Source: Candidatus Acetothermia bacterium
Lineage (GTDB): Bacteria > Bipolaricaulota > Bipolaricaulia > Bipolaricaulales > Bipolaricaulaceae
DNA: 8,156 bases
Assembly: GCA_003552425.1 (NCBI GenBank)
Contig: PUMC01000107.1
Span: 1-8,156, forward strand
Direction: 5' to 3'
A program made the translations under genes and the position numbers. The notes beneath the pieces are model-generated. The model made no database searches. It saw only the letters and a list, made by a program, of their open reading frames with translations, and was not told the DNA's origin. Below, piece by piece: positions 754-6,304 of this stretch. Numbering within the stretch: position 1 is the stretch's first letter; each line of letters begins with the position of its first letter.

Positions 754-2838
754 ATGGGAACGATTGCCATGGAGCAGGTGCGCAATATCGGTATCGCCGC
801 GCATATCGACGCGGGCAAGACCACGGTTACCGAGCGCATCCTGTTCTTCACAGGAAAGAGTCACAAGTTGGGCGAGGTGCACGACGGCCGGGCGGTGATG
901 GACTGGATGCCCCAGGAACGTGAACGGGGAATCACCATCTCCTCCGCGGCCACGACGACATATTGGAAAGGTCACCGGGTCAACGTCATCGACACACCGG
1001 GCCACGTGGACTTCACCGCGGAGGTGGAGCGCAGCTTGCGTGTTGTGGACGGTACGGTGGCACTCTTCTGCGCCGTGTCCGGTGTTCAGCCGCAGTCGGA
1101 GGCGGTGTGGCGGCAGGCGGAACGCTACCGGGTTCCGAGAATCGCGTTCATCAACAAGATGGACCGAACGGGGGCTGACTTCTGGGCGGCGCTGGGGGAG
1201 ATCCGCAGCGAGCTCGGGGCCAATGCGGTGCCCATGGTGCTGCCCATTGGCGCTGAGCAGGAGTTCCGGGGGCTTGTCGACCTTCTCGACATGCATGCCA
1301 TCTTCTACGAGGAGGGACCGGAGGGTGTGCAACTTCGCGAAGCCCCGATACCTCAGGACCTCGTGGATGAGGCCCACAGCGCCCGTGAGCAGCTGGTGGA
1401 GCGCGCCAGCGAACAGGACGATACGTTGCTCGAGGTGTTCATGGAGGGCCGTGAACCCACGCGCGCTGAGCTTTTGGACGGGCTTCGGGCGGCCACCATT
1501 GCTGGGCGGCTGGTGCCCGTGCTCTGTGGCTCGGCGTTCCGCAACAAGGGTGTGCGGCGCCTTCTGGACGCCGTGGTGGACTTCCTGCCCTCGCCGGCGG
1601 ACGTGCCCCCGGTTCGGGGTACCTGGAACGACATCGAGGAAATCCGGCGGGCGGACCCCGACGGTCCGCTGGCGGCGTTGGCGTTCAAGGTGCAGGCGGA
1701 CCGGCATGTGGGCAAGCTCACGTTCCTGCGGGTCTACTCTGGTGTGCTCCGGCCCGGGGATACCGTGCTCAACGCGGGCCGCGATGCCGAACAGCGTGTG
1801 GCCCGCTTGTTCGAGGTCCACGCCAACCGCCGGGAAGCGGTGGACGCCTTGCACGCCGGGGAGGTCGGGGCTGCGGTCGGGCTGGCGGATACGTTCACCG
1901 GGGACACGTTGTGCGTTGCCGAGCATCCTGTGATCCTGGAGGCCATGGAGTTTCCGGCGCCGGTGATCGACCTGGCGCTGCTTCCCGACTCGCGGCGTGA
2001 TGCGGACCGGATGGGGATGGCGCTCGGGCAACTGGCTGCCGAGGATCCGACGTTTTTGGTGCGCTCGGACCCGGAGACGGGGCAGGTGGTCGTGTCGGGG
2101 ATGGGCGAGCTCCACCTGGAGATCATCGTGGATCGTCTGCGCAGGGAGTTCGACGTGGAGGTGGCTCCTGGTCGGCCGCAGGTTGCCTACCGGGAGACGG
2201 CCACGGCCACCGTCGAGCACGAGCACCGTCACGTGAAGCAGACCGGGGGACGGGGGCAGTTCGCCCACGTCGTCATCCGCCTGGAGCCGGGTGAACCCGG
2301 TGGGGGCTTGCAGTTCGAGGACAAGGTGACCGGTGGTCGAATCCCACGGGAGTTCATCCCTGCCGTGCGCCGCGGTGTGATGGAAGCGATGGCCGAGGGT
2401 CCGTACGCGGGTTGCCCGGTGGTGGATGTCTGCGTGACGCTTCTCGACGGGTCGGCGCACGATGTCGATTCTTCGGAACAGGCATTCCGGGTGTGTGGGG
2501 CGACAGCGTTTCGCGATGCGATGCGAAGGGCCAGCCCGCGCCTCCTCGAGCCGTCGATGACGCTCGAGGCCACGGTACCTGAGGAGCACACCGGCGCCGT
2601 GATGGGTAGCCTGGCAGCTAAACGCGGTCGCATCCTTGGTGTGGAGGTGAAGGGGGGCGCGCAGGTGCTCCGCGCTCGGGTCCCCCTGGCGGAGATGTTT
2701 GGCTATTCCACGGAGATTCGCAGCATGACAAGCGGACGGGGCTCGTTCACGATGCACTTCGAGCGGTACGAACCCGTTCCGGTTGAGGTGGCCGAGGAGA
2801 TCGCCAACGCGCGCCGCGAAGCCGTGAAGGTGCAGTAG
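754..2838 (+). CDS. fusA: Translation elongation factor G (EF-G)
   Basis: EF-G is the cytoplasmic GTPase that drives translocation of tRNA and mRNA on the ribosome and, with RRF, helps recycle ribosomes. The 694-residue protein has the usual length and all five domains. GTPase motifs are intact: AHIDAGKTT (16-24, P-loop), RGITI (58-62, switch I), DTPGHVDF (80-87, with catalytic-type His84), NKMD (134-137) and CGSAF (258-262). Domain II covers roughly 300-390, III 400-475, IV 476-600 and V 600-690. The domain IV tip keeps [10 protein letters not shown] (569-578), but the residue before His569 is Ala where Tyr is usual. Domain V contains [20 protein letters not shown] (644-663). The ATG at 754 is set by GGAGGA 6 nt upstream; an in-frame ATG at 769 is less likely. 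The gene is not in a str operon: no rpsL, rpsG or tuf lies beside it. It could be the sole EF-G or one of two paralogues. Confidence 0.97.
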
Positions 2839-2849
2839 TACGTAGTACG
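2836..2849. repeat. Tandem 7-bp duplication over the fusA stop codon
   Basis: TAGTACG occurs twice in direct tandem (2836-2842 and 2843-2849). The first unit begins with the fusA TAG stop, and the last G of the second is the first G of the repeat element GGGGTCAGG. Similar stop-linked tandem duplications occur at both ends of the second element. Confidence 0.85.
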
Positions 2850-2960
2850 GGGTCAGGACGTGCGTCATCACATCTGCGATGTGGCGGCGATCCCGGTTGC
2901 GATGTGATGGCGCACGTCCTGACCCCGGTTCATGCACGTCCTGACCCCGGTCCTGACCCC
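2849..2960. repeat. Palindromic intergenic repeat element, copy 1 (GGGGTCAGGACGTGC family)
   Basis: A non-coding palindrome starts 10 bp after the fusA stop. The left arm is GGGGTCAGGACGTGCG (2849-2864), then T, then CATCACATC (2866-2874). The right arm mirrors it: GATGTGATG (2901-2909), G, CGCACGTCCTGACCCC (2911-2926). This gives 26-bp arms broken only by one T/G position (2865/2910), around a 26-nt loop. Beyond the right arm come a further inverted unit, GCACGTCCTGACCCC (2934-2948), and a truncated one, TCCTGACCCC (2951-2960). A competing small hairpin, CACATC-TGC-GATGTG (2869-2883), could form inside it. No T-run follows, so it is not a classic intrinsic terminator, though it could protect mRNA 3' ends. 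The overall layout recalls REP/BIME elements. No transposase is present in the window. The mobility class is inferred; the structure is seen directly. Confidence 0.9.
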
Positions 2961-2971
2961 GGTTGAACCGT

Positions 2972-2977
2972 TACAAT
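2972..2977 (+). promoter_or_regulatory. Predicted -10 box for the Sm_multidrug_ex-type gene, leaderless arrangement
   Basis: TACAAT (preceded by GT) ends 5 nt before the ATG at 2983, so transcription should begin at or beside the start codon. No Shine-Dalgarno site is present. No good -35 is seen, because that region lies inside the repeat element. A small palindrome, CGGTT-G-AACCG (2960-2970), sits just upstream. The motif resembles the -10 boxes before uspA and mgtE. Confidence 0.45.
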
Positions 2978-2982
2978 CCACT

Positions 2983-3444
2983 ATGGGCTCGTGGGAAGTG
3001 CTTATGGTTCTGGGGTTGTCGGCAGCACCGATCTCGGAGCTGCGCGGTGGATTGCCCCTGGCCCTCAGCTACGGTGCTTCTCCGGCCGTGGCCTATGCGC
3101 TTGCCGTGGCGGGAAACCTTCTTCCAGTGCCGTTTCTCCTCTGGGGCCTGGGTTGGCTCCTGCCGAAGCTGGTGTTGTTGCCAAGGCCGCTCGGAGATTG
3201 GGCCGATCGCTACCTCTCATGGCAGACCGCGCGCCATGGGCCTCGCGTGGAGCGCTGGGGTAGCTTGGCGCTCATGCTCATCGTAGCGGTACCCTTGCCG
3301 ATCACCGGTGCGTGGACGGGGTGCTTGGCCGCTGTGCTCGTCGGTGTAAGCCGTCGACGTGCGCTACCTGCTGTGGTGGCGGGGGTGCTGATCGCAGGGG
3401 TGTTGGTGTTGTTGGCTTCGCTGGGCGTACTGGCGTTGGTATAG
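2983..3444 (+). CDS. Small membrane protein, Sm_multidrug_ex family (PF06695/COG2426)
   Basis: This 153-residue integral membrane protein matches the 'small multidrug export protein' family, a name that rests on little direct evidence; the true substrate is unknown. Family features are clear: SELRGGLPLAL (18-28) after the first hydrophobic stretch, GNLLPVPFL (44-52), and VAVPLPITGAWTG (101-113), followed by hydrophobic stretches to the C-terminus. About four to five membrane segments are expected, with a basic loop (around 70-95) between the halves. The ATG at 2983 is preferred. An in-frame ATG at 2932 would add 17 residues encoded by the repeat element (MHVLTPVLTPVEP), unlike the family. The start lacks a Shine-Dalgarno site but has TACAAT 5 nt upstream, suggesting a leaderless message. 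It ends 28 nt before uspA and could be cotranscribed with it, although uspA seems to have its own -10 box. Confidence 0.85.
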   Translation: MGSWEVLMVLGLSAAPISELRGGLPLALSYGASPAVAYALAVAGNLLPVPFLLWGLGWLLPKLVLLPRPLGDWADRYLSWQTARHGPRVERWGSLALMLIVAVPLPITGAWTGCLAAVLVGVSRRRALPAVVAGVLIAGVLVLLASLGVLALV

Positions 3445-3447
3445 CGC

Positions 3448-3453
3448 TACAAT
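3448..3453 (+). promoter_or_regulatory. Possible -10 box of uspA
   Basis: GCTACAATGG contains TACAAT (3448-3453), 19 nt before the uspA ATG and just after the preceding stop. Transcription would begin near 3460, immediately ahead of the Shine-Dalgarno AGGAGGG (3461-3467). No clear -35 is seen at 17 bp. The call rests on the resemblance of this box to those before the 2983 gene and mgtE. Confidence 0.35.
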
Positions 3454-3472
3454 GGTTGAGAGGAGGGATAGC

Positions 3473-3916
3473 ATGCTCCCGATCAAGAAGCTTCTTTGTC
3501 CCACCGATTTCAGCGATGCCTCTCTCGAGGCGTTGGACGTGGCGATGAGCTTCGCCCGCCATTTCGGGGCCGAACTCCTTGTTGTCCACGTTGTCGCTCC
3601 GGTGCCCACCGTGGCGGCTCCCACCGACCCGGTTGCCTTCGACGTCGGGGCCTACCAGCAAGGTCTTGGCGACGCCTCGGAACGGCAGCTGAGGGAACTC
3701 CTCGAGAAGCGTGTACCTGAGGGGGTGACCTACCGCGGTGTCGTGGTACAGGGTGACGCCGCCCACGAGGTCATCCGCACGGCGGAGGAGGAGAACGTGG
3801 ACCTCATCGTCACGGCCACCCGAGGGGCGTCCACCTGGCGCGTGTTCGTGTTCGGTTCCGTGGCTGAACGAATCGTGCGTGGAGCACCGTGCCCGGTGCT
3901 TACGATTCCGCCGTAA
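3473..3916 (+). CDS. Universal stress protein, UspA family
   Basis: This is a single-domain Usp protein of 147 residues, the usual size. These are cytoplasmic alpha/beta proteins, usually dimeric, often ATP-binding, and linked to stress survival; the exact role is rarely known. The N-terminal strand and acidic residue are present (IKKLLCPTDFSDAS, Asp12). The C-terminal nucleotide-binding region reads ATRG (115-118), nine residues, then GS (128-129), and ends APCPVLTI. In ATP-binding members the motif is GxxG-x9-G(S/T); here the first Gly is Ala, so ATP binding is likely but not certain. The ATG at 3473 is chosen because AGGAGGG lies 5 nt upstream; the in-frame ATG at 3452 overlaps the -10 box and adds residues unlike the family. 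It converges on the Clp gene with only a repeat element between them. Confidence 0.92.
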   Translation: MLPIKKLLCPTDFSDASLEALDVAMSFARHFGAELLVVHVVAPVPTVAAPTDPVAFDVGAYQQGLGDASERQLRELLEKRVPEGVTYRGVVVQGDAAHEVIRTAEEENVDLIVTATRGASTWRVFVFGSVAERIVRGAPCPVLTIPP

Positions 3917-3929
3917 ACCGCGTAAACCG
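3912..3929. repeat. Tandem 9-bp duplication over the uspA stop codon
   Basis: CGTAAACCG occurs twice in tandem (3912-3920 and 3921-3929). The uspA stop TAA lies in the first unit, and the second supplies another in-frame TAA (3923-3925). The last G is the first base of the element GGGGTCAGG. AACCGGGG also occurs inside the element as its internal linker, so part of the second unit may belong to the element. Confidence 0.85.
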
Positions 3930-4074
3930 GGGTCAGGACGTGCATGAACCGGGGTCAGGACGTGCGTCATCACATCTGCGACGTGGTGGCGACCCCAGTT
4001 GCGATGTGATGGCGCACGTCCTGACCCCGGTTCATGCACGTCCTGACCCCAACCATCATGCACGTCCTGACCCC
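3929..4074. repeat. Palindromic intergenic repeat element, copy 2 (longer)
   Basis: This copy fills the gap between the convergent uspA and clpB-like genes. Forward units GGGGTCAGGACGTGC lie at 3929-3943 and 3951-3965, joined by ATGAACC. Inverted units lie at 4014-4028, 4036-4050 and 4060-4074, joined by GGTTCAT and AACCATCAT. The inverted repeat has 48-bp arms (3929-3976 and 4003-4050) with one T/G mismatch (3967/4012) and a 26-nt loop (3977-4002). The inner 26 bp of each arm are identical to copy 1, while the loop differs from copy 1 at four positions, all transitions. The units repeat every 22 bp (24 bp for the last), and unit numbers differ between arms and between copies. Being palindromic, it would fold in transcripts from either side and could separate the two convergent genes. 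That function is inferred. Confidence 0.92.
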
Positions 4075-4085
4075 GGTTCCCGGTT
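4072..4085. repeat. Tandem 7-bp duplication at the clpB-like stop codon
   Basis: CCCGGTT occurs twice in tandem (4072-4078 and 4079-4085). Read on the minus strand, the Clp gene ends TGA-ACCGGG-AACCGGGG, with the last A of TGA opening the first unit. Here too a duplicated stop-proximal sequence joins GGGGTCAGG. TGAACCGGG also resembles the element's own linker TGAACCGGGG, so the stop codon may have been supplied by the element. Confidence 0.8.
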
Positions 4086-6304
4086 CAAGTGCGTAGTTCG
4101 AGTTGGCCGTTGTGTGCGTCGAGGTGCACGCGGTCGCCTTCCTTGATCTCCCCGCGGACGAGCATGGTGGCCAGAGGGTTCTCCACTTGGTGGCGGATGG
4201 TGCGCTCGAGCGGACGGGCGCCGTAGTGGAGGTCGTAGCCTTCCTTGGCCAGAAGGTCGAGGGCTTCCGGGGTGTGTTCAAGGGTGATGTCCTGTTCCTC
4301 AAGGCGCTTGCGGAGGATGTCCAGTTTGATGGTGGCGATCTCCTTGACCATGTGCGGGTCGAGCCTTCGGAAGACGACGATCTCGTCGAGCCGTCCCAGG
4401 AGTTCGGGGCGGAACGTCTGGCGCAGGGATTCCCGCACCAAGCGCTCGGCTTCCTCGAAGGTAGCCGCTGTCTGGAAGTGTTCGGAGCCCACGTTGGAGG
4501 TCATCACGATGAGCGTGTCCCGGAAGTTCACCGTGTGCCCTTGGCCATCGGTGAGCCGGCCTTCATCGAGGAGCTGAAGGAGGATGTTCATCACCTGCGG
4601 GTGGGCCTTCTCCACCTCGTCGAGAAGGATGACCTGATAAGGGCGTCTGCGTACGGGCTCGGTGAGCTGGCCTCCTTCTTCGTAGCCGACGTAGCCCGGC
4701 GGGGCTCCGATGAGGCGTGCCACAGCGTGTTGTTCCATGTACTCGGACATGTCGATGCGCAGGAGCGCGCGATCGTCGCCGAACAAGACCTGAGCGAGGG
4801 CTTTGGCGAGTTCAGTCTTCCCGACGCCGGTGGGTCCAAGGAAGAGGAATGTGCCCGATGGGCGTCTGGGGTCACAGAGTCCTGTGCGGGCGCGCCGGAC
4901 GGCTTCCGCCACAGCTTTCACACCGGCTTCTTGGTCCACCACACGTTTGTGGAGGAGGTCCTCGAGGTGAGCGAGGCGCTCCCGCTCTCCCTGTAGCAGC
5001 CGCTGGACGGGGATCCCCGTCCATACGGCGACCACTTCGGCGACGTGCTCAGCGGTCACGACGCGGGGCGCTTCGTCGGCGGCCGCCTTGAGGCGGAGCT
5101 TGGAGGCTGCTTCGTCAAGGAGGTCGAGGGCTTTGTCGGGGAGTTTCCGCTCGGTGATGTAGCGGTCGGCCAGCCGTGCCGCGGTGGGCAGTGCGGCGTC
5201 GTCGACCGTTACGCGATGGTGTTCCTCGAGCTTGCCCTTGATCCCGGCGAGGATGTGCACGGTTTCCTCAGGGGTGGGTTCGCGCACGAAAACCTGGGCC
5301 ATGCGCCGCTCCAGGGCCGCGTCCTTCTCCACGTGCTTGCGGTACTCGTCGAGTGTGGTGGCGCCGATGAGCCGTAGGCGCCCGCGGGCGAGGGGTTCCT
5401 TCAGCATGTTGGCTGCGTCGACCGCCCCTTCGGCGGCTCCCGCGCCGACGACGCTGTGGAACTCGTCGATGAACAGGATCGTGTTGCCGGATGATCCCTC
5501 GACTTCCCGGAGGACGGCCTTCATGCGTTCCTCGAACTCGCCCCGGAACTTCGACCCGGCGACCATTCCGCCTACGTCGAGGGCGACGACTTGCTTGCCC
5601 TTGAGCGCTTCGGGGACTTCACCGGACGCGATGCGCTGCGCGAGGCCTTCGGCGATGGCTGTCTTTCCCACGCCGGGTTCACCGACGAGTACGGGGTTGT
5701 TCTTGCGGCGTCGGAGAAGGATCTGGATCACGCGCTCGATCTCCTCCTCCCGGCCGACCACCGGGTCGAGTTCGCCGCGCTTGGCCAGCTGGGTGAGGTC
5801 GATGCCGTACTTCTCGAGCACGCGGTAGCGTTCCTCGGACTCGGGGGAGTCGACGCGCTGCGCTCCGCGTACCTGATGGAGCGCAGTGTACACGGCGTCG
5901 GGTGTGATGCCGTGCTTGACGAACAGGCGGGCCAGCCCGGGGTCGTCGTCGCGGGCCACGGCGATGAGCAGGTGATCGACGCCGATGTAGTCGTCGCGCA
6001 GGCGTTTGGCCTCCGCTTCGGCGGCCTGGAACACTTCCTCGAGCCGCGGTGTGATGTACACGGTTTGGCCGGTCCCCTGGCTAACGCACGGGCGCAGGGC
6101 CAGCAGGTGCTCGAGGTCGCGCACGAGCCCGGGGATCGTCACGCCCATCGCTTTGAGCACGTCCTGGGCCACGCCCTCGTGGGTGGCCAGGGCGTGGAGC
6201 AGATGCTCGACGTCCAGTTGGTTATGGCGCCGCTCGCGGAGCGTCTCCTGTGCGCTCGCCAACACCTCCTGTGCACCTTGTGTCAACCTATCGGAACGGA
6301 TCAT
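4085..6304 (-). CDS. clpB: ClpB-like AAA+ unfoldase lacking the middle domain
   Basis: This two-ring Hsp100 ATPase of 739 residues is cytoplasmic and hexameric and threads proteins through its pore. An N-domain with two Clp repeats covers about 5-145. Ring D1 has GEPGVGKT (208-215), pore loop KFRGE (252-256; Tyr is usual, Phe here), ILFIDE (276-281) and DAALERRM (328-335). Ring D2 has GPTGVGKT (490-497), pore loop GYVGYEEGG (537-545), VILLDE (558-563), GRLDE (637-641; usually NR[IL]DE) and the sensor-2 GAR (695-697). Sequence between motifs resembles ClpB ([20 protein letters not shown]), but the roughly 120-residue ClpB coiled-coil middle domain is absent: [14 protein letters not shown] (401-414) leads straight to VWTGIPV (427-433). 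No ClpC middle domain and no [LI]GF ClpP-docking tripeptide are seen between 606 and 630. Start ATG at 6304 has AGGAGGG 7 nt upstream. A CIRCE operator overlies its promoter. ClpA or ClpC naming is possible. Confidence 0.9.

Follow-up and report, generated by a model that had tools for sequence, protein, structure and literature searches.

Two palindromic repeats, here called E1 and E2, lie about 1 kb apart in intergenic DNA of a Candidatus Acetothermia bacterium (contig PUMC01000107.1). Their presence raises the question whether they belong to a family of mobile elements or serve as hairpins for the neighbouring genes. To answer it we analysed a stretch of 8,156 nt, referred to as the window, and compared its repeats with similarly ended sequences and transposase genes in other genomes. 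Pfam searches identified the adjoining genes, and the repeats were resolved into the following features:

2836-2838: stop codon of the EF-G gene fusA (Pfam)
about 2835-2964: E1, whole element, between fusA and the Sm_multidrug_ex gene
2835-2848, forward strand: tandem 7-nt left flank GTAGTAC GTAGTAC, abutting E1 (sequence, flank-duplication scan)
2849-2874, forward strand: E1 left arm, GGGGTCAGGACGTGC + GTCATCACATC (15-mer search, inverted-repeat detection)
2875-2900, no strand: E1 centre, 26 nt (repeat comparison, fold)
2901-2926, reverse strand: E1 right arm (15-mer search, inverted-repeat detection)
2927-2948, reverse strand: E1 outer end unit, GGTTCAT + GCACGTCCTGACCCC (15-mer search, repeat comparison, family D2)
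2949-2964, reverse strand: second outer end unit of E1, shortened, GGT + CCTGACCCC, then GGTT (sequence, 15-mer search)
2983 (assumed start) to 3444: Sm_multidrug_ex gene (Pfam)
to 3916: uspA, Usp (Pfam)
about 3912-4085: E2, whole element, between the convergent genes uspA and clpB
3912-3928, forward strand: duplicated left flank of E2, CGTAAACC G CGTAAACC (sequence, flank-duplication scan)
3929-3950, forward strand: E2 outer left end unit, GGGGTCAGGACGTGC + ATGAACC (15-mer search, repeat comparison, flank-run test)
3951-3976, forward strand: E2 left arm (15-mer search, repeat comparison)
3977-4002, no strand: E2 centre, 26 nt (repeat comparison, fold)
4003-4028, reverse strand: E2 right arm (15-mer search, repeat comparison)
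4029-4050, reverse strand: E2 outer right end unit, GGTTCAT + GCACGTCCTGACCCC (15-mer search, repeat comparison)
4051-4074, reverse strand: second outer right end unit of E2, AACCATCAT + GCACGTCCTGACCCC (15-mer search, repeat comparison, flank-run test)
4075-4085, reverse strand: GGTT CCC GGTT, reaching the clpB stop codon (sequence alone)
4085-6304, complement: clpB, ClpB (Pfam)

The fusA stop codon lies inside the first GTAGTAC copy beside E1 and the uspA stop codon inside the first CGTAAACC copy beside E2, and E2 occupies the whole gap separating the stop codons of uspA and clpB. Among the first 55 hits listed for the Sm_multidrug_ex protein, organism names are given for nine (eight Bipolaricaulota or Acetothermia, one Coriobacteriia); the closest of these is 71% identical, and a further hit reaches 92%. 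A search for the shared 15-mer revealed eight exact copies in the window (forward strand: 2849, 3929, 3951; reverse strand: 2912, 2934, 4014, 4036, 4060), all eight of which carry GGGGTCAG. Two further matches with three mismatches were found on the reverse strand, at 2946, which is the shortened E1 end, and at 6157, which lies within clpB and is unrelated; shuffled controls gave a mean of 0.77 matches with up to three mismatches (maximum 4). Alignment of E1 with E2 showed 96% identity across 101 nt (2848-2948 and 3950-4050). All four differences fall in the 26-nt centre (P = 0.0037 if placed randomly) and the arms are identical. Outside the arms, E1 carries one further end and one shortened end on its right side, and E2 has a single further end on its left side and two on its right. 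The sequence GGTT CCC GGTT at the clpB border may be the shortest reiteration of the E2 right end. In predicted single-strand folds the arms pair almost perfectly, with -65 kcal/mol for E1 and -122 kcal/mol for the extended E2. The first-pass annotation of this DNA had described two intergenic palindromes that share a 15-mer around a 26-nt centre, one just after fusA and one between convergent uspA and clpB. The palindromes and, by Pfam, their location were confirmed; the figure for the centre is correct for arms of 27 nt (E1) and 48 nt (E2), the facing 15-mers themselves being 48 nt apart. That annotation mentioned neither the additional outer end copies nor the left flank of 7-8 nt that is duplicated at each terminus, as GTAGTAC GTAGTAC followed by GGGG in E1 and CGTAAACC G CGTAAACC followed by GGGG in E2.

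Dyads with the same ends were searched for in the GTDB genome collection with the pattern GGGGTCAGGAC N40-70 GTCCTGACCCC. This search revealed 98 stretches in several phyla, which belong, by record prefix, to 28 assemblies, 17 of them with at least two stretches. Carriers included Planctomycetes MAGs (up to 17 stretches), a deltaproteobacterial MAG, Mariprofundus erugo P3 and other Zetaproteobacteria, an uncultured proteobacterium, Fimbriimonadaceae, a MAG filed as Eubacterium, Pseudomonadaceae and others. The terminal 11 nt are constant by construction, since the search pattern fixed them. The interiors of the dyads are lineage-specific: those of the same assembly are similar, as are those of some related assemblies, namely several Planctomycetes, and M. 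erugo with two Zetaproteobacteria MAGs; otherwise the interiors differ. The first-pass annotation had named both the two-arm structure and the 15-mer as search targets; the former led to the same-ended dyads in 98 stretches, but the latter was found in none of these loci and on no arm of 107 dyads. The likeness of the window elements to the dyads therefore consists of the terminal 11 nt and the layout.

The dyad pattern was absent from viral contigs, and a single viral 17-mer match, by its appearance phage coding sequence, was treated as chance; spread by viruses was rejected. Plasmid spread was likewise rejected: two plasmid records match E1 in part, over 43% and 27% of the query, and the better match lies within annotated genes and, as far as inspected, shows no like palindrome. 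Comparison of one Mariprofundus locus (L005) with 22 other genomes of the genus revealed no clean empty site, because the matching relative carries other elements there. At this locus (L005:1467-2513, M. erugo) two similar 100-aa genes adjoin dyads and the contig carries short repeats, which together are perhaps a cassette array. Mirrored dyad flanks, in which the left flank resembles the reverse complement of the right, were considered as a main claim and dropped after a by-genome permutation: for 73 elements from 8 genomes the summed run was 301, whereas 5000 permutations averaged 262 and reached at most 309. As the run falls within the permutation range, it mostly reflects family-conserved flank. 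At four loci (L026, L034, L046, L052) the flanks beyond the dyad are mutually reverse-complementary over 10-13 nt.

Transposase genes of the Y1 type were found in most of the dyad carriers. Y1_Tnp matches occurred in 21 of 23 dyad-bearing assemblies searched (23 of the 28; 136 matches) compared with 5 of 14 named control genomes. We examined 70 of the 136 genes, comprising 30 returned as loci and 40 picked by hand, mostly RAYT-size open frames. A gene was scored as having both ends if GGGGTCAG lay at most 400 nt upstream of its start codon and CTGACCCC near its stop codon, in the orientation of terminal inverted repeats (TIRs). Both ends were present at 20 genes, one at three and neither at 47, with the motif reversed at two; the fraction of 20 in 70 is not a random estimate because 40 of the genes were chosen. 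At 18 of the 20 two-ended loci (exceptions L117 and L127) the ends also agree inward, over 12-29 nt from the terminus. A second sample, 30 of the 44 Y1_Tnp matches from 16 other genomes of the M. erugo genus, gave six genes with both ends, two one-sided, 22 with none and two with the motif reversed. In seven of the 23 positive loci (L113, L115, L132, L134, L141, L143, L145) the TGA within the terminal CTGACCCC serves as the stop codon of the transposase gene, and at L118 of genome G004 a Y1 transposase gene has three end copies per side, spaced 81 nt.

In a tree built from 67 of the 70 Y1 proteins the TIR label requires 10 changes, compared with a mean of 19.2 after shuffling and none of 500 shuffles as low, although some rows are near-copies that inflate this clustering. 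The clustering of the label indicates that several sub-clades use GGGGTCAG ends. None of 15 short rows (131-166 aa) that form one clade, which we take to be IS200-type, is flanked by the TIRs. Pfam searches with the proteins of the 23 positive loci detected Y1_Tnp in all 23, Bac_DnaA_C in four and other HTH-type models in one to three each.

The transposase ends of 12 genomes were compared with the dyads of those 12. In four genomes the transposase end fits the genome's own dyads far better than those of other genomes, with 30 nt in G005 (L141; at most 12 nt elsewhere), 28 nt in G009 (L145; 12 nt), 25 nt in G004 (L118; 11 nt) and 20 nt in G003 (L128; 13 nt). The other eight are without a clear margin of own over foreign matches. 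Two of these, G015 and G007, show a 17-18 nt match both within and between the pair. In the remaining six (G001, G008, G010, G014, G020 and G021) no transposase end is closer to its own dyads than to others' (L132 of G001: 12 nt with its own, 14 nt with G009; L117 of G021: 11 nt with its own, 13 nt elsewhere), and many ends there could not match the pattern-fetched dyads because they do not start with GGGGTCAGGAC. In G005 an exact 18-nt arm occurs 40 times and the reversed control pattern not at all. Some genomes with dispersed same-motif dyads encode, in short, Y1 transposases with matching ends, and the matches in four of 12 genomes provide sequence support for partnerships between such transposases and miniature palindromes. 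The first-pass annotation had suggested that GGGGTCAGG-type termini lie beside Y1 transposases of other genomes, and the transposase-locus ends and the dyad matching bear this out.

These results support well that E1 and E2 are passengers or remnants of a mobile element. Very likely both are copies of one non-autonomous miniature element, moved in trans by a Y1 (HUH) transposase that belongs to the RAYT/TIRYT group, although the 47 of 70 Y1 genes that lack such ends count against this. Since the 8-kb window is without a Y1 transposase gene, we infer the mobilising enzyme of this host. Its gene would be, or would once have been, located elsewhere in the genome between the same ends. In E1 and E2 two GGGGTCAG-type TIRs face each other across a short centre. 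The enzyme would most likely recognise the GGGGTCAG end together with its arm, nick one strand at the GGGGTCAG terminus and move a hairpin-forming single strand, and the miniature copies would travel as its passengers. REPINs, reportedly described by Bertels and Rainey in 2011, are said to be comparable mobile units of two inverted end modules moved in trans by a Y1 enzyme. Their ends are reportedly REPs of the GTAG/GTGG type, whereas those of the window elements are GGGGTCAG TIRs.

The duplicated flanks of E1 and E2 have counterparts at other ends. With a minimum length of 6 nt and a gap of at most 3, a threshold set after the window had been seen, flank duplications were found at 13 of 325 outermost GGGGTCAG ends (L001-L168 and the window) and at 30 of 6500 random positions, which were unmatched for intergenic location; excluding the two window ends and two at L044 that are members of longer arrays left 9 of 321. 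More often the repeated unit takes in part of the end as well. Among 92 pairs of GGGGTCA spaced 8-45 nt apart, 57 (32 loci, 15 assemblies) have 6 nt or more of the preceding flank in common; the count drew on 88 of the 98 dyad loci, and a control with other loci of the same assembly gave a mean fraction of 0.086. One genome, G005, contributed 38 of the 57. The outer units of the window are longer, consisting of 15 nt of the end plus ATGAACC, have little flank in common (runs of 0-4) and occur in both E1 and E2, so that they were probably moved or copied as part of the element.

Reiteration of flank plus end may be a trace of staggered nicking. Repeated nicks at the junction, with a stagger of about 7-19 nt, would leave tandem copies of flank and end fragment outside the termini; two staggered nicks, fill-in and rejoining could produce each duplication, and the tandem copies might afterwards grow or shrink by slippage. 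In its wider form this proposal, which we make tentatively and hold to be possible rather than probable, states that TIRYT-type Y1 enzymes repeatedly nick in a staggered manner around the terminus, each round duplicating a junction segment of 7-19 nt (flank and 0-8 nt of the end). The ends would then act as local generators of minisatellites whose units record past nicks in many phyla, this host included. The main rival, to which we give close to an even chance, is that the reiterations and flank duplications arose by ordinary slippage during replication, either at the ends or at a strong hairpin, without any contribution from nicking. Replication can stall at hairpins, and some duplications show, by eye and uncounted, 2-3 nt of microhomology. 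However, reiteration also occurs at seven of the 31 transposase loci that have such ends, where the listed cases have no opposite arm within 130 nt inside, which disfavours hairpin-stalled replication as the only cause. In 23 of the 57 reiterations, moreover, the end fragment has the length of GGGGTCA(G), 7 or 8 nt, a further point against slippage. The longest reiteration agrees better with slippage, as its units are of two near-uniform types, like those of a minisatellite. It was found in a Mariprofundus relative (L190, G026:C3:1036800-1039800, reverse strand, about 813-1010) and comprises 12 GGGGTCA copies in units of 17 and 15 nt, GGGGTCAGCGAAAACTA and GGGGTCAGAAAACTA. This array runs into an element ending CTGACCCC and is a minisatellite anchored on a transposon end. 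Should nicking have left the reiterations, genome sequences could reveal where these enzymes cut, and a single enzyme assay could check the position.

For the palindromes as such, the other explanation to be weighed is that they are regulatory hairpins of the host, which protect mRNA 3' ends or insulate convergent genes and spread by local duplication without a transposase. Both elements lie directly 3' of stop codons and their folds are strong (-65 and -122 kcal/mol, the latter for the extended E2). Within the 101-nt match the centre alone varies between identical arms, and local duplication could also yield two copies 1 kb apart. However, in other phyla similar ends are found around Y1 transposase genes and on dispersed dyads. 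A scan of 2700-4200 for terminator-like sites (a GC-rich stem followed by a T run) found none, leaving the role in termination that the first-pass annotation had considered unsupported, and an Rfam search gave no match at the gathering threshold. We consider regulatory hairpins of this kind improbable. A search of the window for tRNA genes also revealed none. Membership in the GTAG- or CGTC-tagged REP superfamily is very improbable: CGTC does occur within the arms and GTAG directly before E1, but such tags are expected, according to the available text of PMC3733652, to stand unpaired at one end of a repeat 20-40 bp long, whereas CGTC lies inside the paired arm of the fold, and the GTAG belongs to the duplicated fusA end while E2 has GTAAACC before its hairpin.

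As passengers of a Y1 transposase, E1 and E2 are ordinary in kind, and their host is unreported as far as searched. Di Nocera et al. 2013 (PMC3733652) described, in the text available, Y1 transposases flanked by TIRs, some of the type GGGGWSAS, as TIRYTs and TIRtrons, and TIR repeat families that are moderately abundant, many as dimers or clusters. The window GGGGTCAG fits GGGGWSAS, the flanking of Y1 transposases was seen here in other genomes, and the window holds two dimeric copies 1 kb apart within 8 kb. The impression that the repeat looks undescribed thus holds for this exact sequence and, as far as searched, for the host, but not for the ends, since the literature already has the GGGGWSAS TIRs of TIRtrons. 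In contrast to those TIRtrons, the host here belongs to Bipolaricaulota, and no autonomous copy was seen in the window; the name 'acetothermia' is not mentioned in the available text of the paper. The reiteration of flank together with 7-8 nt of the end was not found described in that text either (PMC3733652), and is possibly a new observation.

Searches of the literature for a 9-mer or its complement revealed no title on such repeats among the matches listed, and neither did a search combining GGGGTCAG with transposase and repeat. The names TIRYT and TIRtron appeared in the searched literature in Di Nocera 2013 and Quentin 2018 only. According to the sections of Quentin et al. 2018 available (PMC6006769), 20 of 26 published TIRYTs fall in TnpAREP subclass 2.1, all with a C-terminal HTH. 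No REP-like sequences were found there near subclass 2.1 and further analyses are called necessary, so that the GGGGWSAS-ended enzymes named in 2013 awaited, in that text, confirmation of their place in the 2018 classification. In agreement with subclass 2.1, HTH models match some of the TIR-flanked proteins; in contrast to it (PMC6006769), some of the Y1 proteins with GGGGTCAG ends here are shorter and lack the C-terminal extension.
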